Assembly (NCBI RefSeq): GCF_003574655.1
Contig: NZ_QNUM01000006.1
Coordinates: 372,001-436,000 of the forward strand
Direction of reading: 5' to 3'
From: Cohaesibacter haloalkalitolerans
GTDB lineage: Bacteria > Pseudomonadota > Alphaproteobacteria > Rhizobiales > Cohaesibacteraceae
Length of the DNA stretch: 64,000 bases
Shown here: positions 54,041-63,421 of the stretch, piece after piece
Numbering within the stretch: position 1 is the stretch's first letter
Layout of the letters: the number at the start of each line of letters is the position of its first letter
Notes under the pieces: model-generated
The model's database searches: none
Seen by the model: only the letters and a program-made list of their open reading frames with translations
What the model was told of the DNA's origin: nothing
Made by a program: the position numbers and the translations under genes

Positions 54041-54378
54041 TCGTCTGACGGGGCGCCGGTCTGCGGATTGCGCCCTTTCCTTCTTCTGCGTGCCTATTCG
54101 CGATGTCAGTCCCCCTTGCGGGGCTGTTGCGGATTGCTGATGCGCGGCTTCTGTTGCGTTTTGCAACCGGGTCTGTTTTTGTCAGTACATCGTTAAACCT
54201 AAAATCAGAACGGTTCGATTATCATTCTGTTAATCATGTTGCGTAACCGAATATTTTTTAAAACCAACTAATACTCACTCACTGGGACGGGATCGAATAA
54301 ACGGTATTCTGGGATGGAGTGTCTACCGGTGCGGCGATCATCTCCCGAGGTTTTCGGGAGTTAACAGGTATACAGTCA
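54041..54378 (+). promoter_or_regulatory. Presumed promoter region of the polysaccharide operon
   Basis: No gene is seen. The stretch 54170-54290 is AT-rich, which contrasts with both sides and fits a promoter. No -35/-10 pair is assigned. Confidence 0.35.
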
Positions 54379-55794
54379 ATGACAGAAACGGCTCAATTGC
54401 CCCTCTCGGGGATAAGGCTAAAAATCCGGCAACTGATGGGAAACAGGGACGCGCGTGGCATTTTCGGCACCATGGTGTTGAAGGTCGCGAGCGCCGGTAT
54501 TGCCTTTGCGCTGTTTTCATTGGCGGCCAACGCCGCCGGGGCCGAGGAATTCGGGCGCTTCTCCATTCTCTTTTCTGCCTTGTCGATTCTGTCGATCGTG
54601 GCGGCCTCCGGTCAGGAAATGCAGGTTGTCCGGTCCTGGAGTGAATATCTCTCCGACAACAGACCCGGTCTGGCGCTGGGAGCCCTGCGTTATGGATGGT
54701 ATGTCTCCATCGGGGGCGTCGTGTTCATTTGCACCCTGTTCTGGGTTGCGTTCGAAATGGACACCAACATTTTCAGAGAGACGATCAAGACAGGGCACAT
54801 GATGGCCTTTGCCTCCATAGCCTTTCTGGTTGGCAACACCCTTGCCCTCTACAGCTCACACGCCACGCGGGCGATTGTTGGCATCCGCATGGCCGATGGT
54901 CACTACGAGTTCACCTGGCGCGCATTTGCCGTGGTGTTCCTGATCATCAGCCTGTTTGTCGGCCATCCGGTTACCAGCACCGAAATTCTCGCTGTCTTTG
55001 CTCTTGGATTGGCCTTTGTGGTTGCCACCCAGGCCTTCGCCGTCAGCAAAGAGGTCAAAAAGCAGATCGGAGATGATGTCGTCGCTGACTATGATGTCAA
55101 GCAATGGACACCGCGCTCCGTTCGCTTCTGGCTGGCTTCCATCATGGAAGTTTCCAACCAGCATATGGAGGTCTTCATCATCGGCATGCTGCTTGATCCG
55201 ATCTCGGCAGGGGCCTATTTCGTGGCCGTGCGGCTGGCCAATGCCTTCGCGCTGGCGACCAGTGGCCTTTATACCTTCGGAACGCGGCGGGTGCCATCGC
55301 TCTATTTCTCACGCAACATCCCCGAACTCAAGCACACGTTGAACCTGATGGCAGGCATGAGCCTGATCGTCGTGCTTGTCGGCATGTCCGCCGTTGTCAT
55401 TGGCGGCGACTATATGCTGATGATTTTCGGGCGATCCTATGCCGACTATTACTGGATCTTCCTGATCCTTGCGATCGGAACGGGTATGACGGCGGCCAAT
55501 GGCGCAGCGCCTGCCCTTTTGATGCTGACCGGCCACGAGGGGCGCTATGTCACCATTGTCACGGCCTCGGTCATCTTGCGCGTCGCCGGTTTCTTCATCG
55601 TTGTGCCGCATTTCGGCATTCTGGGGGCGGCTGTGGTTTCCTGCGTGGTCATGGTCGTCATGGCCTGGCTGACCAATTATTTCTGCCGTAGCCTCACTGG
55701 CATGGATTCCTCCATCATGCGGTTCATCGTCGAGAGCAGAGATGAGCCGCCAACCCGGTTTCAAGAAGCAAATCATATTCCTGACAGCCAATGA
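54379..55794 (+). CDS. Polysaccharide flippase (Wzx/MOP-like)
   Basis: A protein of about 471 residues with 11-12 membrane helices, of the polysaccharide-transporter family. It starts with a soluble segment, then GIFGTMVLKVASAGIAFALF and EEFGRFSILFS, the typical first two helices. The C-terminal half has GILGAAVVSCVVMVVMAWL. It likely flips lipid-linked exopolysaccharide units across the inner membrane. The ATG at 54379 is preferred; a GTG at 54319 would add 20 residues. It opens the operon; its stop is nine bases before the glycosyltransferase start. Confidence 0.85.
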   Translation: MTETAQLPLSGIRLKIRQLMGNRDARGIFGTMVLKVASAGIAFALFSLAANAAGAEEFGRFSILFSALSILSIVAASGQEMQVVRSWSEYLSDNRPGLALGALRYGWYVSIGGVVFICTLFWVAFEMDTNIFRETIKTGHMMAFASIAFLVGNTLALYSSHATRAIVGIRMADGHYEFTWRAFAVVFLIISLFVGHPVTSTEILAVFALGLAFVVATQAFAVSKEVKKQIGDDVVADYDVKQWTPRSVRFWLASIMEVSNQHMEVFIIGMLLDPISAGAYFVAVRLANAFALATSGLYTFGTRRVPSLYFSRNIPELKHTLNLMAGMSLIVVLVGMSAVVIGGDYMLMIFGRSYADYYWIFLILAIGTGMTAANGAAPALLMLTGHEGRYVTIVTASVILRVAGFFIVVPHFGILGAAVVSCVVMVVMAWLTNYFCRSLTGMDSSIMRFIVESRDEPPTRFQEANHIPDSQ

Positions 55795-55803
55795 GGTACT
55801 CAT

Positions 55804-56982
55804 TTGACCAACATGGCCCAATCATTGACCGAAACGTCTCCGGATGCGACGGCTGAAGCTGCGCAGGCGGAACGCCCGATCAGGCTTCTCTTCATCCAGA
55901 CACAGGCCGAAAACGCCGGTGCACAGGAGATCTCCCGTCTGTTGGGGGAAGGCTTAACGCCCAAGGGCTATGACATCCATCACCTGTTTTTCTATCGCAA
56001 GACCGACGCTTTCGACGATGCCCCGGATACATCCTTTACGGTGGAGAAACGCCCGCGCAATCCCTTTGCGCTGCTCATGTTTCTGATCAAGCTGATCTTC
56101 CAGATCCGGGCATTGAAGCCGGATGTGGTGCTGACCTTCCAGCATTACGGCAATCTGTTCGGTGCCCCGGCGGCCCGCCTTGCCGGTGTGCGTCATGTCA
56201 TCGCCAATCAGGTCTCGGCTCAGGCGACCATGAACGACACCATTCGCCGCATCGACAAGCTCTGGGGCCGTATCGGGCTCTATGATGTCATCACGGTCAA
56301 CTCGGTCGATACCGCAGGGGAATACAAGGATTTTCCTGCTGCCTACACCCGGCGCATCATTCACGTGCCGCATGGGTTCAAGGACAAGAGCTCCCAGTTG
56401 AGCAAGGCGGAGGCTCGGGCCCGCTTCGGTCTGCCCGATGATGTCATCATGCTGGGGTCGGTCGCCCGACTGAACCGGCTCAAACGGCTGGATGTCGCCA
56501 TTCACGCCCTGACTTTCAACGAATGCTGGCACCTGGTCCTTGGCGGGCAGGGGCCGGATGAAATGCGCCTTCGGTCCGTTGCCCGCGACCTTGGCGTGGA
56601 AGATCGAACTCATTTCACGGGGGAAATGGAGTCCGAACAGGTTGGTGATCTGCTTGCCGCCATGGACATCTTTCTGTTTCCGACCGAGGCAGAAACCTTT
56701 GGACTTGCGGCTGTAGAGGCGGCTCAGGCAGGACTACCGATTGTATGTAATGACATTCCAGTGCTAAGAGAGGTTATGAAAACCGATCTGGGCCCCTGTG
56801 CCCTGTTTGCAGACAGCAATAATCCGGACAGCTATGCGGAACCGATCCGCAAGCTGCTGCGGGACAAGACGCTGGTCGATCAACTGACGGAAGCGAGCCG
56901 TGCGCTGAAGACCCTCTATTCCATGGGGGCCATGGTGGCGCGCTATGATCAGCTCGTATTGGATATGACCGAAGCGAACTAA
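55804..56982 (+). CDS. Glycosyltransferase family 4
   Basis: A 392-residue GT-B fold enzyme. The donor-binding half shows LGSVARLNRLKRLDVAIHAL, LVLGGQGPDEMRLRSVA and the E-x7-E motif in EAETFGLAAVEAAQAGLPIV. The acceptor half has LLFIQTQAENAGAQEISRLL. The start is probably TTG at 55804: GAGG lies seven bases before it, whereas the next ATG (55813) is too far from the site. It adds a sugar to the carrier-linked unit; the sugar is unknown. Confidence 0.88.
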   Translation: MTNMAQSLTETSPDATAEAAQAERPIRLLFIQTQAENAGAQEISRLLGEGLTPKGYDIHHLFFYRKTDAFDDAPDTSFTVEKRPRNPFALLMFLIKLIFQIRALKPDVVLTFQHYGNLFGAPAARLAGVRHVIANQVSAQATMNDTIRRIDKLWGRIGLYDVITVNSVDTAGEYKDFPAAYTRRIIHVPHGFKDKSSQLSKAEARARFGLPDDVIMLGSVARLNRLKRLDVAIHALTFNECWHLVLGGQGPDEMRLRSVARDLGVEDRTHFTGEMESEQVGDLLAAMDIFLFPTEAETFGLAAVEAAQAGLPIVCNDIPVLREVMKTDLGPCALFADSNNPDSYAEPIRKLLRDKTLVDQLTEASRALKTLYSMGAMVARYDQLVLDMTEAN

Positions 56983-57006
56983 TTCAAATTGGGGGATTCG
57001 AGGTCA

Positions 57007-58533
57007 ATGAGATATTGCCTCTATTTTGACCCGTCATGCAGCCGAAGTTGGCACAGGCTGCTGGTTGAACGGATGTCAAAGAAATTTCAGGCAGAGGCTC
57101 ACACCTGTCGGTCCGCTGCCGCAGGTCAGCCGTCGCGCATTGCACGTGTGCTGGATTTCGAAAATCATTACCTGTTCAAGGGGAAGCCGCATGCCGCATC
57201 GCCCCTGCCGCCAGAGATGCTGGAAGCCGTAGCGCCCGCTGCCGATCGGTCTGCCGGGTTCGATCTTGTGATCGATCTGGTGGGTGATGGCAACGCGCCT
57301 CGGGGCAAGACCACTCTCACCTTGCTGTTCAACGGCTTTCCGTCTGAAAAGGCCCTCATTGGGTCGATCATGCACGGGGGAATGCCGCAGATTGCCCTTT
57401 CTGATCAGACTGGCGCGATTGTCGCAACGGGCAATCCGTCACCGGAACTGGCCAAGGGGCTCTCCGGGGCGATGGAACAGACCTATGCAAGGGTCATTAC
57501 GCTTATACTGGCTTACATCAACCATCCGGACAGGTGGCTCCATCCGCTCAGCAAGGTAGAAGCCGACTGGCCAGGCCTGAAGGATGTGGCCAAGTGGATC
57601 TTCAAGATGGTCGTCACCCGCTTCGTTAAGCAGATCTACTATCGCCTGTTCCTGCCAAGCCATTGGCGTGTGGGGTGGCGCTGGGTGACCGGTCAGGACG
57701 TCTGGAGCAGTCTGTCGCTTGACGGCGAGCCCTGGAGCGTGCTTGACGATCGAAACAACCATTTTTATGCGGATCCTGTCCCCTGGAAAAAGGGTGGCAA
57801 CCATTACCTGTTTTTCGAGGATCTGGATCACAAGACCCAAAAGGGCATCATTTCAGTCGTCAAGATGGAGAAGAATGGCCCCGCTGGCCCCATAAAGCCA
57901 TGCCTTGAGGAACCGTTCCATCTCTCCTACCCCTTCCTTATCGAGTATGAGGGAGAGACCTACATGATCCCGGAAACTTCGGCCAACCGAAAGATCACGC
58001 TCTACAAGAGCAGCAACTTTCCCTTCGGCTGGAAGCCCTTCAAGACGATCCTGAGCGACATCGACGCAGCCGATGCGACCATCACCAGACATGAGGGACG
58101 CTGGTGGCTGTTCTGTGTGACGCGCGATGGCGGCGGCGGATATTCCGATTGCCTGTCGATTTTTTACGCCGAGGATCTGTTCGGCCCCTGGCTGCCCCAT
58201 GCGCAGAACCCGGTGCTTGTAGACAGGGCAACAGCCCGTCCGGCAGGGAATTTTGTCATCCGCAACGGCAGGCTCTGCCGCCCGGTGCAGGATTGCAGCC
58301 ATTCCTATGGCTGGCGTATGCAGCTGGTCGAGGTGACCGAACTGACGCCGGAGAAATATGAGCAGCAGAGCATCACGAAGCTGACGGCCAATGACTTGTG
58401 GCCGGGGCGCAAGCTGCACACGTTGAACCGGGCCGGTAATCTGGAAGTCATCGATGGTGCCGTGCTGCGGCCGCGGTCGCACTATTTCAAACCCATCACC
58501 AACTGGCTCTACCGCCCCGCATCGGACGACTGA
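57007..58533 (+). CDS. GINT1-N-like (glucosamine inositolphosphorylceramide transferase family) protein
   Basis: A 508-residue protein. The C-terminal 270 residues have the five-bladed propeller-like domain named after plant GINT1: FYADPVPWKKGGNHYLFFED, EPFHLSYPFLIEYEGETYMI, PETSANRKITLYK, GRWWLFCVTRDG and RPAGNFVIRNGRLCRPVQDC. The N-terminal 230 residues look like the formyltransferase-like half found in similar bacterial proteins (WHRLLVERMS, FDLVIDLVGDGN). ATG at 57007 is chosen. Being in a polysaccharide operon it may transfer or modify a sugar, but bacterial members are uncharacterised to my knowledge. Confidence 0.75.
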   Translation: MRYCLYFDPSCSRSWHRLLVERMSKKFQAEAHTCRSAAAGQPSRIARVLDFENHYLFKGKPHAASPLPPEMLEAVAPAADRSAGFDLVIDLVGDGNAPRGKTTLTLLFNGFPSEKALIGSIMHGGMPQIALSDQTGAIVATGNPSPELAKGLSGAMEQTYARVITLILAYINHPDRWLHPLSKVEADWPGLKDVAKWIFKMVVTRFVKQIYYRLFLPSHWRVGWRWVTGQDVWSSLSLDGEPWSVLDDRNNHFYADPVPWKKGGNHYLFFEDLDHKTQKGIISVVKMEKNGPAGPIKPCLEEPFHLSYPFLIEYEGETYMIPETSANRKITLYKSSNFPFGWKPFKTILSDIDAADATITRHEGRWWLFCVTRDGGGGYSDCLSIFYAEDLFGPWLPHAQNPVLVDRATARPAGNFVIRNGRLCRPVQDCSHSYGWRMQLVEVTELTPEKYEQQSITKLTANDLWPGRKLHTLNRAGNLEVIDGAVLRPRSHYFKPITNWLYRPASDD

Positions 58534-58789
58534 CGGGACAGGGAGGGGCCAGAGACCTTTGCACGGACAGCTCTTGGAGCTGCCCTGATCCATGTGACAT
58601 CACCGGGACAAGTGGCGTGGAATACAGCTTGTCCGGGCACACGCAGGCCGCCGCACCATCCTGCGACTACGCGTGATTGCGGCTTATGGTTAACTAAAAC
58701 TCAATACCATCCCTTCATACTTGAGCGAGACGGAAGTGGGAGTCTGCCCGTCTTCCGGTTGCAATTGTATAGAGTCGCAGGGATTGTTC

Positions 58790-61339
58790 ATGTTCGGACG
58801 CAAAAAAAAGAAATCTGATCTGGATTGGCAGCCGGATGGTGAGCCGGTTGCCGCAGATGTTGCTTTCTCTTCTGCCGAAGATGGCAAAAAGGCAAGGAAG
58901 AAGGCGCGAAAAGCTACCGCAAAGGCGGCGCCAACGGTCACGCCGCATGCCTCCTTTTCCCCCTCGATCCAGACGGGTGTTCCTGCAAGTGATGTCTGGA
59001 GCGGATTGGTTCATCCGCGAGCGATCCTGCGTTTCCTGCGCCAGCAGTTTGTGCTGATTACCCTTGTCATGCTCCTTGTCGTTGGCGCGGGGCTGACTGC
59101 TTACAACCTGCTGCCAAGCAAGTTTGCCTCGACGGCACTGGTTCTGGTTGATCCGCGCCAGCCCCGGATCACGGATTCCGACACCGTCGTGTCCGGCATC
59201 GGTGGCGATGCGGCTGCTCTGACCAGCTATGTGCAGATCATGAAAAGCGGCGGCTTCCTTACCAAGGTCGTTGATGAACTGGGGGTCAAGGATGACCCGG
59301 ACTATGCCGGAGCCCAGAACCAGACCGCTCTTGTCGGCATGTTCCAGAAGAATATCTCCGCCAACCGTCAGGGCGCGACCTATATCGTTGAGGTCAATGC
59401 CGTATCGGGTGACAAGGAAAATGCTGCCAAATATGCCAACGGTGTAGCCGCTGCCTTTGTGCGCGACCAGAAGGACTATCGCAGCAACGCCAACGAGGAG
59501 GCCGCGCAATGGCTGTCCGAACGGCTGCAGTTGCTGCATGGCAATCTGAAGAAATCCGAAGAGGCTGTGGCGGCCTATCGTGCCAGGAACGGCATCGTCG
59601 ACGCCGGGTCGCAAGGCACCCTCGACAATCAGCAGCTGACCTCGCTGATCTCGCAGATCGGCGCGGTGACCACCGAGCTGGCCGACTCCAAGGCTCGCTA
59701 TGATCAGGCCCGCAAGGACGGTGTGCCGGGAAGCGCCCGCGCGACCCAGAGCGGCGAATTCACCAACCTCGATCAGCTGATGCAGGAGCAGGACCGCCTG
59801 CGCCGCGACGCTGCCGAACTGAGCCAGACCCTTGGCAGCCGCCATCCCCGCATTCTGGCAAACCGCGAGCAGCAGTCGATCATCGCCGGTCAGATTACCC
59901 GCGAACGCAGCCGCCTCGTCGAGCGCGCCAAGCAGGATTACGAAACCACGCTTGCCAAGAAACAGGCGCTGGAAGGCCAGTTGGCCGATCTGCGTCAGCG
60001 GTCCATCCAGCTCAACCAGGCCAAGGTGGAACTGGACAACCTTGAGCGGGAAGCGACCGCCAACCGCAATCTCTATGAGCAGTTTCTGGCCCGCTACAAG
60101 ATCACCGACGAACAGGCACAGTTCAATTTCAACGAAGCGCGAATCGTCTCCAAGGGCGTCGTGCCTTTGAAATCGACCAAACCTTCAATCAAACTGGTTG
60201 GGGTCGCGCTGGTCGTCCTCGGGTTTGTGCTCGGGTTGCTGGTTGCCCTCATCCGGGTTGCCTTTGCCGCGCCGGAACGGGGGAGAGAAAGCGACTTTGA
60301 CGGCTTTGCGAGAGGGCCGAACGGTCCACTCTCTCCGGCCCCTGTCGACGTGTCGGCACATTTTGCGAGCAACTATCGCTTTGCCGGCGTGGCCTACGCG
60401 CCCGGGAGCTATCCTGCCTCGGCAGAAAGCGCTGCCCCATTCGCGGCCACCCCGTTCAGCTTCACGCCAACCGGTGCGGCGGCCAATGCAGCTCCCGTTG
60501 TGGCCGCTGCCGTCGCCAGCAAGTCCGTTGATGATTTGGAGGAAGCCGAATCTGAAGCTTTGGCAATGGATCCTGCAGAGGGCACGACGCAAGAGGTCGC
60601 AGCATTGCAACCGGCTGAAGAGCCTGAAGCGCAGGTCGCCAGCGAAATCATGGGCGATGACGCCCAATCCGGCCTAACGGCTGTCAGTACGTCTGGGCAA
60701 CCGTCCGGCGGTTCGGCCGATCCGGTGATCATCCGTCTTCCGAACGCCCCGACGGAAGGGGGGCGTTTGCCCGCGACACCGCCACAGACCAACATGTGGT
60801 TCAAGGCCCTTGATGGCTTTCTCAAGGATGGACTGGCCGAAGAAAATCTGAGCCTGCTGGTAACGGCAGCCCAGCCCGGAGAAGGCCTCAATGTCACCGC
60901 CGATCTGGTGCGCAGTTTCGCGGTTGACGCCGGGTTCCATCCGGTTGTCATCTCGCTTCAGGGGCAGCCAAACCAGCCGATGACGGCAAATGCCGGTGGT
61001 GCGATGCAAAGGCCGGTTGCCAGAATGGAGCAGTTCGAGGACTACGACCTGATCCCCTTCTATGGCGCGTCCGGTTTTGACAGTGCCGAAGGGCTGAGCC
61101 TGGCACTCGCCGAAGAACTGGCAGGTCTCATTGATCTGTGCTCGGAAACCTATGGCTTCGTGATCCTTGAGGCAAGGGAGCTGCTCGACCCGGGCACCCT
61201 TGAAGACCTGATGGATCTGGTCGATCACAGCATCGTCGTTCTGCAAAACGAGGTGCTGGAAGAGGACGATCTGGCCGATTGGTGCGACTGGGCCAGCGAA
61301 TGCGGCGCCGGTCTCGTGCTGGATCAAACTCTAAGTTAA
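58790..61339 (+). CDS. Wzz/GumC-type chain-length protein with degenerate tyrosine-kinase domain
   Basis: An 849-residue co-polymerase. Two membrane helices (near residues 85-105 and 467-487) bracket a long periplasmic coiled-coil part with Wzz features (STALVLVDPRQPR; ATANRNLYEQFLARYK). An Ala/Pro/Glu-rich linker follows. The C-terminal domain has the place of a BY-kinase, but its Walker A reads QPGEGLNVTADLV (GEG at 697-699) where active kinases have GEGKST, the next strand lacks the DxDxR signature and Walker B reads FVILEARELLDP. No Tyr-rich tail is present. It should control chain length without ATP use. ATG at 58790 follows AGGGA. Confidence 0.85.
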   Translation: MFGRKKKKSDLDWQPDGEPVAADVAFSSAEDGKKARKKARKATAKAAPTVTPHASFSPSIQTGVPASDVWSGLVHPRAILRFLRQQFVLITLVMLLVVGAGLTAYNLLPSKFASTALVLVDPRQPRITDSDTVVSGIGGDAAALTSYVQIMKSGGFLTKVVDELGVKDDPDYAGAQNQTALVGMFQKNISANRQGATYIVEVNAVSGDKENAAKYANGVAAAFVRDQKDYRSNANEEAAQWLSERLQLLHGNLKKSEEAVAAYRARNGIVDAGSQGTLDNQQLTSLISQIGAVTTELADSKARYDQARKDGVPGSARATQSGEFTNLDQLMQEQDRLRRDAAELSQTLGSRHPRILANREQQSIIAGQITRERSRLVERAKQDYETTLAKKQALEGQLADLRQRSIQLNQAKVELDNLEREATANRNLYEQFLARYKITDEQAQFNFNEARIVSKGVVPLKSTKPSIKLVGVALVVLGFVLGLLVALIRVAFAAPERGRESDFDGFARGPNGPLSPAPVDVSAHFASNYRFAGVAYAPGSYPASAESAAPFAATPFSFTPTGAAANAAPVVAAAVASKSVDDLEEAESEALAMDPAEGTTQEVAALQPAEEPEAQVASEIMGDDAQSGLTAVSTSGQPSGGSADPVIIRLPNAPTEGGRLPATPPQTNMWFKALDGFLKDGLAEENLSLLVTAAQPGEGLNVTADLVRSFAVDAGFHPVVISLQGQPNQPMTANAGGAMQRPVARMEQFEDYDLIPFYGASGFDSAEGLSLALAEELAGLIDLCSETYGFVILEARELLDPGTLEDLMDLVDHSIVVLQNEVLEEDDLADWCDWASECGAGLVLDQTLS

Positions 61340-61399
61340 GTTTTTTCTGATAACACCTGACCTGAATAGACCTGTGTCTTCTGTCTTCAGAGGTGTTTG

Positions 61400-62158
61400 A
61401 TGAACGATATCCCGAAAATCACGGTTGGCGGTTTGCCTATTGCAGTCGAGGACTGCGATGGCGCCGCCCGCACCATGCTTGAGCATGCCTATGACAGTCG
61501 GGGCAAGGGGCGCAAGCCGCTCTATGTCACCTCCGCCAATGGGCAGGTCCTCTCCATGTGTGCCAGTGACAGTGCGATTCGGGAGCTGTTTCTGAAGGCC
61601 GACCTCATTCATGCCGACGGCACACCGCTCGTCAAGGCCGCCAGGCTGTTGGCCAAAACGCCTCTGCCAGAACGCGTGGCCACCACGGATCTGGTACACA
61701 ATGCCGCCCGGATGGCGGAAAAGGAAAAGGCCAGCTTCTACTTCCTCGGCGCTACTCAGGAAGGCATTGAGAAGGCGGTCGCCAACATGAAGCGGCTTTA
61801 TCCCGATCTGATCTTTGCCGGCTATCGCAACGGCTATGTCTCGGCAGACGAGGAACAGGGCGTGATTGACGAGATCAATCGGGCGGCGCCCGACATTCTC
61901 TGGATCGGCATGGGCGTGCCGCTCGAACAGCGCTTCGTGGCGCGCAATCTGGAAAAGCTGACCGGCGTCGGGGTGGTCAAGACCTCCGGTGGCCTGTTCG
62001 ACTTCCTGTCCGGCAAGAATTCCCGCGCCCCGCAATGGATGCAGGATGTCGGCCTTGAATGGGCCTACCGGATCTATCAGGAGCCGGGGCGCCTGTTCTG
62101 GCGCTATCTGACCACCAATCCGCACGCTGTCTGGTTGCTACTGACCCGTACACGCTGA
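61400..62158 (+). CDS. WecG/TagA/CpsF family glycosyltransferase (GT26)
   Basis: A 252-residue transferase with the family marks TSANGQVL, the catalytic Asp in LIHADGTPLVKAARLL, YFLGATQEGIEKAVANMKRLYP, GYRNGY, WIGMGVPLEQRFV and GGLFDFLSGKNSRAPQWMQ. These enzymes add the second sugar (for example ManNAc or glucose) to a carrier-linked one. AGAGG stands six bases before the ATG at 61400. It acts in the same operon as the flippase and the GT4. Confidence 0.93.
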   Translation: MNDIPKITVGGLPIAVEDCDGAARTMLEHAYDSRGKGRKPLYVTSANGQVLSMCASDSAIRELFLKADLIHADGTPLVKAARLLAKTPLPERVATTDLVHNAARMAEKEKASFYFLGATQEGIEKAVANMKRLYPDLIFAGYRNGYVSADEEQGVIDEINRAAPDILWIGMGVPLEQRFVARNLEKLTGVGVVKTSGGLFDFLSGKNSRAPQWMQDVGLEWAYRIYQEPGRLFWRYLTTNPHAVWLLLTRTR

Positions 62159-62188: not shown

Positions 62189-63421
62189 TTGACTTATTTT
62201 TCAAAGAAAGCCGTGAGGCGCCTTGTCGAGGTCTCTTTGTTGTTCGGAGCAATTGCGCTTTTTCTCTTCTACTATCTTCCCATGAAGGAAGAAGACGTGA
62301 GATTGGGGACCGGGATAGCTGAACGGATGGAGAGCGCAGACGGAACGTTTCGTCGTGGCTTATCCCAGTGCCCAGCTGGACATCCCCTCTCGACAAATGG
62401 GAGAGATAGTCGTCTGGCCAGAGGTCTTAATTTTCCAAATTGGAGAGTAAAAAATCCGGACTTGAAACCAGATGATGATCTGCTAGGAAAGCTGTTTAGC
62501 GAAGGCTTTACGCATATTCGATTGCCGATAGAGCCTGTCATGGTTATGGAACCGTTTGCTTCTCCCGAAGAGATCAATCAGTACATGAGCGAGCTGGAAG
62601 GCATGCTTGGAAGGCTAACCGGTATGGGGTATGCCGTCAGTATTGATATGCATCCTTCAAGCGCGGTTATTGCAGAATTATACGAACGGAATCATGAGCT
62701 CGCATTTAAATTGCTGACCCAGGCTTGGGAAGGTTTGGCATCAAAGCTGAAAAATTGGCCATTTGACGATGTCTATTTCGATCTGTTGAACGAGCCAACA
62801 GATCATGGCCAATGGTGGCCGGCAGCTCAAGTTTTAGTTTCGCGGCTGAATTCGATTGCCCCGGGTCGCAGATTGATTGTTGGTCCTGGTATCTGGCAAA
62901 GATATGAGCCTTTGCTTCAATCACAACCGCTCAATGGCAATGACCTGATTTACGCCATTCACTTCTATAGCCCGATGGTTTTCACCCATCAATCGATGAA
63001 CTGGGATGAAGGGTCTTCTTTATCGGCGATTTCTAATGTTCCATTTCCTGCAAGTATCAACCACCCTTCTGTTATGAACCAAATCATCCAGCTGAAATCT
63101 GCAGGCAAATCAAAGGCAGCTGAAGAGCTCAGCAAAGCTTATGAAGAACCATGGAATAGCGAGCGCATTGGCAAAATCTTCAAGCAAGTTGGCCAGTGGG
63201 CTTCAGCCCATAATGTCGCAGTTATAGTGAATGAATTTGGTGTGTTGGATTTTACCGTCGGTATGGAAGATCGAGGAAGATGGATAAGAGCTGTTCGTGA
63301 AGGCGCGGAATTAGCATGTGTTGGATGGGCATATTGGGACGTGGGGCCCGATGGCTTTGGGTTGATAGATGACAAGACGCGCAATGTTACGCCATATGCT
63401 ATCGATGCCTTGTTGCATTAA
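62189..63421 (+). CDS. Membrane-anchored glycoside hydrolase family 5 (endoglucanase-like)
   Basis: A 410-residue GH5 glycanase. The N-terminal helix (LVEVSLLFGAIALFLFYYLP) anchors it or serves as signal. The acid/base Glu202 is in LLNEPTDHG and the nucleophile Glu349 in VNEFGVLD; DMHPSS, IHFYSP and GWAYWDVG are further barrel marks. The start is most likely TTG at 62189: GGGAGGGGG lies five bases upstream and the first ATG (62282) would remove the helix. Base composition is clearly more AT-rich than the other genes of the operon. It may trim the exopolysaccharide or have come with a transfer event. Confidence 0.87.
   Translation: MTYFSKKAVRRLVEVSLLFGAIALFLFYYLPMKEEDVRLGTGIAERMESADGTFRRGLSQCPAGHPLSTNGRDSRLARGLNFPNWRVKNPDLKPDDDLLGKLFSEGFTHIRLPIEPVMVMEPFASPEEINQYMSELEGMLGRLTGMGYAVSIDMHPSSAVIAELYERNHELAFKLLTQAWEGLASKLKNWPFDDVYFDLLNEPTDHGQWWPAAQVLVSRLNSIAPGRRLIVGPGIWQRYEPLLQSQPLNGNDLIYAIHFYSPMVFTHQSMNWDEGSSLSAISNVPFPASINHPSVMNQIIQLKSAGKSKAAEELSKAYEEPWNSERIGKIFKQVGQWASAHNVAVIVNEFGVLDFTVGMEDRGRWIRAVREGAELACVGWAYWDVGPDGFGLIDDKTRNVTPYAIDALLH

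Follow-up and report, generated by a model that had tools for sequence, protein, structure and literature searches.

A Wzc-like polysaccharide co-polymerase of Cohaesibacter haloalkalitolerans with a fused acidic domain of predicted BY-kinase fold and no catalytic motifs

Introduction

In the textbook account, capsule and exopolysaccharide assembly is switched by cycles of Wzc phosphorylation. Within the same bacterial order as the locus considered here, PssP2 of Rhizobium leguminosarum is a polysaccharide co-polymerase (PCP) whose long cytoplasmic domain at the C-terminus resembles Wzc/Etk; the excerpts of its description report that it is without Walker A, A', B and the Tyr cluster, appears unphosphorylated and is involved in chain length (PMC4182512). 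Fused PCP-BY-pseudokinases (SMc01795, BCETI_6000729, Mlr8439, VV1_2305) are named in the excerpted text of a further study, according to which EcpK of Myxococcus xanthus (with EpsV) contacts its PCP and is required for polysaccharide, and HfsB of Caulobacter crescentus stabilises HfsA (PMC12004946). No activity was detected for CapB1, a BY-kinase of Staphylococcus aureus, and the excerpts of its report discuss it as a pseudokinase (PMC3795738). The idea of a pseudokinase fused to a co-polymerase is sound, and it is already in print in the excerpts of PMC12004946 and PMC4182512.

Here we consider one such candidate from the marine bacterium Cohaesibacter haloalkalitolerans. It is encoded in a stretch of 64,000 nucleotides (the window) on contig C21, which is part of a 5.01 Mb genome; its product is called the window protein below, and the C-terminal part of it the window domain.

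Judged by the excerpted descriptions, the fused proteins SMc01795, BCETI_6000729, Mlr8439 and VV1_2305 are like the window protein in having a PCP and a BY-pseudokinase in one chain (PMC12004946), whereas PssP2 is unlike it, with 586 aa, a shortened periplasmic part and a Pfam AAA family that is still recognised (PMC4182512). EcpK, a proposed PCP-2 scaffold, resembles the window domain in its BY-kinase fold (predicted for the latter) without Walker motifs or a Tyr tail; however, it stands alone and its C-terminal helix is basic, whereas the window domain is acidic and tail-less (PMC12004946, excerpts). HfsB is likewise a BY-pseudokinase of an alphaproteobacterial Wzx/Wzy pathway, but a stand-alone one, the window domain being fused (PMC12004946, excerpts). 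Wzc of Escherichia coli (PDB 7nhr, 3la6) shares the PCP-2a architecture and the modelled C-terminal fold (Z 13.3, 163 residues), but it is an active kinase with a Tyr tail and a short linker (PMC8285477, excerpts). Finally, CapB1 (PDB 4jlv) is the best PDB sequence match of the window domain; unlike the latter, it stands alone, and it was crystallised with ADP-Mg bound (PMC3795738, excerpts). Neither the acidic, long-tethered form nor a genome with two dead co-polymerases is described in the excerpts of PMC12004946, PMC4182512 and PMC3795738, and no description of the window protein was found among the papers listed on Cohaesibacter exopolysaccharide (by title) or on degenerate or inactive BY-kinases.

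Architecture of the co-polymerase

The open reading frame runs from an ATG at 58790 to a stop at 61339 and encodes 849 aa. An in-frame TTG at 58721 was considered as the start and is unlikely, because the head conserved among the orthologs begins at 58790. The gene and the parts of its product are as follows.

58790..61339, + strand: Wzc-like polysaccharide co-polymerase (PCP-2a) with a predicted C-terminal BY-pseudokinase domain, 849 aa (ORF, Pfam, NCBIfam, model, Foldseek)
58790..58834, + strand: conserved N-terminal head, residues 1-15 (MFGRKKKKSDLDWQP); MFGR[KN][KN]K in 14/16 and LDW[QR]P in 16/16 orthologs
59021..59281, + strand: Wzz domain, residues 78-164 (Pfam PF02706)
60032..60259, + strand: GNVR domain, residues 415-490 (Pfam PF13807)
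60269..60715, + strand: acidic linker, residues 494-642, predicted disordered and poorly conserved (pLDDT <50; dN/dS 0.22-0.52)
60782..61336, + strand: predicted BY-pseudokinase domain, residues 665-849, net charge -27 (profiles, AlphaFold model)
60878..60898, + strand: Walker A place, residues 697-703 (GEGLNVT), with L700 at the Lys position (alignment)
60944..60970, + strand: Walker A' place, residues 719-727 (VVISLQGQP), with S722 at the Asp position
61157..61174, + strand: Walker B place, residues 790-795 (FVILEA), with E794 at the Asp position
61277..61291, + strand: DWCDW, residues 830-834; W831 and W834 invariant in 16/16 orthologs

Wzz and GNVR, both above the Pfam cut-offs, are the only Pfam matches of the protein at E<=1, with no kinase or AAA family among them. 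The NCBIfam families for exopolysaccharide transport and chain length match the same Wzz/GNVR part below their cut-offs. The AlphaFold model contains helices 87-106 and 467-492, presumably membrane helices, and a helical middle part, and Foldseek matched it to Wzc and WzzE. On the model, the protein is thus classed as a PCP-2a, with Wzz and GNVR between two putative membrane helices and a domain of predicted BY-kinase fold fused C-terminally. The full-length monomer model (pTM 0.32) does not define the position of this domain relative to the membrane part. The conserved head sits within an N-tail that is otherwise loose among the 16 orthologs, and that is modelled with low confidence and without a confident contact.

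Gene neighbourhood

The gene belongs to a same-strand run in the order flippase-like, GT4, GINT1_N, co-polymerase, WecG/TagA, GH5.

54319..55794, + strand: Wzx-like flippase, below family cut-offs (Pfam, NCBIfam)
55804..56982, + strand: GT4 glycosyltransferase (Pfam)
56989..58533, + strand: GINT1_N-domain protein, putative glycosyltransferase (Pfam)
61397..62158, + strand: WecG/TagA/CpsF-type glycosyltransferase (Pfam, NCBIfam)
62189..63421, + strand: GH5 (cellulase family) hydrolase (Pfam)

This order is repeated around the orthologs in genomes G001, G010, G015 and G017. G004 shares its downstream part, the WecG gene there being recognised by its start sequence. In G054, which is more distant within the order, the flippase, GT4, the GINT1-type gene and the co-polymerase recur, with a Wzy_C protein approximately 4 kb further on. 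The Pfam scan found no polymerase among the scanned neighbours in the window, and an export protein and an initiating transferase are encoded on another contig, beside a second PCP. The pathway is probably of the Wzx/Wzy type.

Two of the neighbours deserve a separate mention. The GINT1_N domain, the name of which comes from a plant sphingolipid glycosyltransferase, is seen here in a bacterial polysaccharide operon and is kept in G054 too. The GH5 protein shares only 46-47% identity with the corresponding proteins of G001 and G004, both close relatives, but 50% with the one from G015, which is more distant. The neighbours of its gene, by contrast, are 86-96% identical to G001; judging from these identities, the GH5 gene seems to have been replaced.

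Fold of the C-terminal domain and loss of the catalytic motifs

When a profile was built from the 16 orthologous domains, its best match in the PDB was CapA1B1 (E 5e-5), with BY-kinases making up 6/10 of the matches at E<=10; the hhalign comparison of the orthologous domains with seven canonical BY-kinase domains gave a probability of 88 (E 3.2e-6). The AlphaFold model of the domain, built from the 16-row alignment, has pLDDT 75.5 and pTM 0.74. When it was compared with known structures by Foldseek and VIA-align, BY-kinases came first (Wzc, Etk, VpsO, CapAB, BceF), and in the best VIA-align row residues 1-185 of the model pair with Wzc 504-700 (Z 13.3, 163 residues, 3.5 A). The window protein stops where this pairing stops, without a tail. 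SRP GTPases, which are to be expected of P-loop folds, also appear in the VIA-align list with Z about 10 to 12, BY-kinases being ahead by about 1. Residues 665-849 are therefore assigned, on the sequence profiles and the model, the BY-kinase fold. The sequence-only reading had called the domain kinase-like, in the place of a BY-kinase; the prediction, with Wzc as its first match, agrees with the former, while the latter holds only in part, since the predicted-disordered residues 494-642 part the domain from the second membrane helix.

The same reading had noted that the P-loop Lys, the Walker A' Asp, the Walker B Asp and the Tyr tail are lost, and all of this was borne out across the orthologs. 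None of the 16 has Lys at the Walker A position; the Walker A' Asp is replaced by S (n = 13), T (n = 2) or L (n = 1), and the Walker B Asp by E (n = 13), K (n = 1) or V (n = 2). The last 30 residues contain no Tyr in 15/16 orthologs and a single one in L016. The E..R pair, which is part of the ring-contact interface motif EX2RX2R (PMC3795738, excerpts), is present in 0/16 orthologs vs 7/7 canonical domains. With the Walker A/A'/B residues, the Tyr-rich tail and E..R all absent, the domain does not appear to be an active BY-kinase. We class it, relying on the modelled fold, as a BY-pseudokinase tied to a PCP, since it would combine this fold with missing catalytic motifs and Tyr tail in the same chain as a PCP-2. 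The earlier description of a pseudokinase fused to a chain-length protein is hence retained, the predicted fold being kinase-like and the motifs absent.

Retention in the genus and the probable role of the domain

The gene is full length and open in 16 orthologs from 16 of the 18 Cohaesibacter genomes; no ortholog was found in G005 (64% complete) and G008 (90% complete). Compared with 397 genomes of the order, the domain profile matched 20, 16 of them strongly (the orthologs) and 4 others weakly. For nine ortholog pairs, a simple counting method yielded dN/dS of 0.04-0.19 in the domain (where the synonymous distance is >=0.8 in three of the nine pairs), 0.02-0.09 in the co-polymerase part and 0.22-0.52 in the linker, the domain evolving faster than the co-polymerase part in 8/9 pairs. 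The values for the domain imply that it is kept by selection. As the kinase parts are lost and selection nevertheless keeps the domain, the co-polymerase probably runs without a phosphate switch.

By analogy with the described pseudokinases, we favour the explanation that the domain is a phosphorylation-independent binding or scaffold module of a Wzc-like co-polymerase, and consider it fairly probable. A fused cytoplasmic BY-kinase domain would have turned into a pseudokinase that acts through contacts. By docking on the cytoplasmic base of the subunit that carries it or of adjacent ones, or else on a partner from the pathway, it would guide co-polymerase assembly without tyrosine phosphorylation, as proposed for EcpK and HfsB. 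A second fused co-polymerase without Walker A in the same genome (see below) favours this reading; the faster change of the domain relative to the co-polymerase part, the lost E..R and the long linker speak against it, as does a full-length model that leaves the domain unplaced. Of the initial suggestion that a structural or docking role replaces phosphorylation control, the non-catalytic part fits both the purifying selection and the fact that no intact BY-kinase was detected in the own genome. No binding partner of the domain was found, and the structural part, that is, docking or scaffolding, is what we infer.

Long linker and acidity

Between residue 490 and the Walker A site, the 16 orthologs have 182-289 aa vs 76-141 aa in 29 motif-intact relatives; L017 (from G054) has 90 aa, and six of the 45 other relatives without Walker A have more than 200 aa. 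The predicted-disordered linker would thus be approximately twice the usual length, mostly about 100-190 residues longer. With a linker of this kind and no E..R, the domain may lie elsewhere than in a ring under the membrane, its place in Wzc, and the ring contact of the canonical domains seems not to be kept in the window protein.

The net charge of the domain ranges from -19 to -31 in 16/16 orthologs vs -8 to +7 in 7/7 canonical domains, and the linker is negative in 16/16 orthologs. Per 100 aa, the window domain has -14.6 vs -3.9 to +0.8 in nine other window proteins. Over the common span, the median charge per 100 aa is -13.6 in the orthologs, -4.8 in other domains without Walker A and -0.6 in the intact ones. 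The acidity is strong but not unique, because other domains without Walker A reach -14.5 per 100.

These charges could have a function of their own. The acidic domain and linker might permanently replace the negative charge that Tyr phosphorylation gives to Wzc, which we regard as unlikely; that the cytoplasmic side of the octamer then stays loose and cycles without a kinase, with the basic N-terminal head as a possible contact, seems equally unlikely. The constancy of the negative charge in the domain and linker of all orthologs, and the gap to the canonical domains and to the other window proteins, speak for such a role. However, comparable acidity in some other domains without Walker A may point to drift or to a general feature, the basic head is missing in 2/16 orthologs, and the low-confidence N-tail makes no confident contact in the model.

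A more far-reaching reading, which we put forward tentatively and regard as rather unlikely, is as follows: Cohaesibacter of this kind would build its polymers without a tyrosine-kinase switch, both fused co-polymerases found in the genome being kinase-dead, the window domain would be a permanently charged, tethered interaction module with invariant Trp, and the N-terminal head would be a possible docking partner.

That the domain is instead a decaying relic without function is quite improbable. Indeed, all catalytic parts are gone and the domain outpaces the co-polymerase part in 8/9 pairs, but dN/dS remains low in 9/9 pairs, the reading frame is open in 16/16 orthologs, and there are invariant residues, e.g. 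the two Trp. Moreover, co-polymerases without a kinase domain occur in the order, 16/96 having <150 aa after the PCP part and hence no room for one (L091 and L103 run off the fetched end); outright loss is therefore possible, though it has not happened in the 16 orthologs.

Search for an active kinase and a second dead co-polymerase

The canonical BY-kinase profile matched four places in the own genome. By NCBIfam, two of them are nearest to ParA (below the cut-off), one is RepA and one ApbC (over the cut-off), and no TIGR01007 match exceeded its cut-off; no intact BY-kinase was found in this genome by these searches. The separate active kinase that the sequence-only reading had left room for was, accordingly, not detected. 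Within the genus, TIGR01007 is above the cut-off in 2/18 genomes (G005, G017); the match in G015 lies just below it with motifs intact, and that in G008 is an edge fragment. The low-molecular-weight phosphatase gave five matches in the own genome, 0 of them on the window contig.

It is very improbable that a separate active BY-kinase phosphorylates the window protein or pairs with it: motif-intact BY-kinases do exist in three genus genomes (G005, G015, G017), but the profile matches in the own genome are ParA-like, RepA and ApbC, and there is no Tyr tail for phosphorylation. Just as improbable is a residual regulator that serves as a sensor through some atypical form of nucleotide binding, since, although the fold is kept in the model and the window protein's own loop is still GEG, the Lys and both Asp positions are lost, and the loss of the Walker A-loop glycines in several orthologs makes it less likely that nucleotide binding is conserved.

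Searches with the window protein, Wzz and GNVR each gave one place in the own genome. The window protein was considered as the only co-polymerase of the genome, and this was rejected, as a second fused PCP adjoins the match of an export protein.

L045:10265-12061, contig C20: second fused co-polymerase (598 aa), with a short export protein and a WcaJ/HfsE-type initiating transferase next to it

More divergent co-polymerases may still be missed by such searches. The 598-aa protein has no Pfam family at or above the cut-off. Its C-terminus, aligned over 14 genus members, matched the canonical domains with a probability of 97 (E 3.4e-11), and against the PDB the C-terminal profile gave BY-kinases as 9/9 matches at E<=0.01. 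Among 17 genus rows, GK[ST] at Walker A is present in 0/17 and the Walker B Asp in 17/17, and every row has <=2 Tyr in the last 40 residues. The second co-polymerase was matched in 17/18 genus genomes, the proteins of G005, G008, G010 and G017 being of a larger, more distant type. The hhalign comparison of its domain with the window domain gave a probability of 5, and because this direct likeness is small, the two domains seem to have decayed separately. With both detected fused co-polymerases kinase-dead and the domain kept by selection, the genome offers a natural test of whether the main job of the domain is structural.

Two further observations concern other loci. A third type of fused co-polymerase in Cohaesibacter (L084, L090, L098 and L099 from G008, G005, G017 and G010, respectively) has lost Walker A and A' and keeps the Walker B Asp. 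Contig C11 of the own genome carries a separate capsule-type locus (L046:9519-19319) with an SLBB export protein and a Capsule_synth protein, which also encodes a 1001-aa protein with glycosyltransferase and sulfotransferase domains.

Fused co-polymerases in the order

The survey was seeded with the window protein as the query, and, its members having been found in this way, leans towards relatives of that protein. It comprises 97 loci (L017-L033, L059-L138) with one duplicate (L032 = L061), that is, 96 loci from 46 genomes; it leaves out matches truncated at contig ends (G052, G045, G051), the weak match G042:C1215 and additional segments of a gene already represented. Apart from the loci with no room for a kinase domain, there are 80 non-orthologous fused co-polymerases, 51 without GK[ST] at Walker A and 29 intact. 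The BY-kinase profile matches 46 of these 51 at E<=1e-3, the exceptions being L022, L063, L079, L111 and L133; L065, L074 and L102 have a Lys at the Walker A place, though not in a GK[ST] context, and L087 runs off the fetched end, so that its alignment columns are unreliable. The form without Walker A is thus the commoner one among the sampled relatives (51/80, in a sample biased to relatives of the window protein), and to annotate such proteins as "tyrosine autokinase" would often be a mistake.

In a tree of 112 rows, built by a quick method and with long branches, there are at least 8 changes between the Walker A-intact state and that without it, hence the states changed several times. The 16 orthologs form one clade (support 100) near L017 and L022.

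We also considered whether the losses are linked, using 91 domains: the 16 orthologs, the 46 profile-supported ones without GK[ST] and the 29 intact ones. A Tyr-rich tail (>=3 Tyr in the last 40 residues) is missing in 62/62 domains without GK[ST] vs 10/29 intact ones, and E..R in 58/62 vs 4/29. A claim of linked losses across the tree was dropped, as the supported branches provide no more than 5 independent pairs, too few for the test (sign test, p 1); the association is hence descriptive. One member of the survey, L093 from G020, has the A' and B Asp intact and GEG kept, with Ala replacing the Walker A Lys, and perhaps represents an early step of the motif loss.
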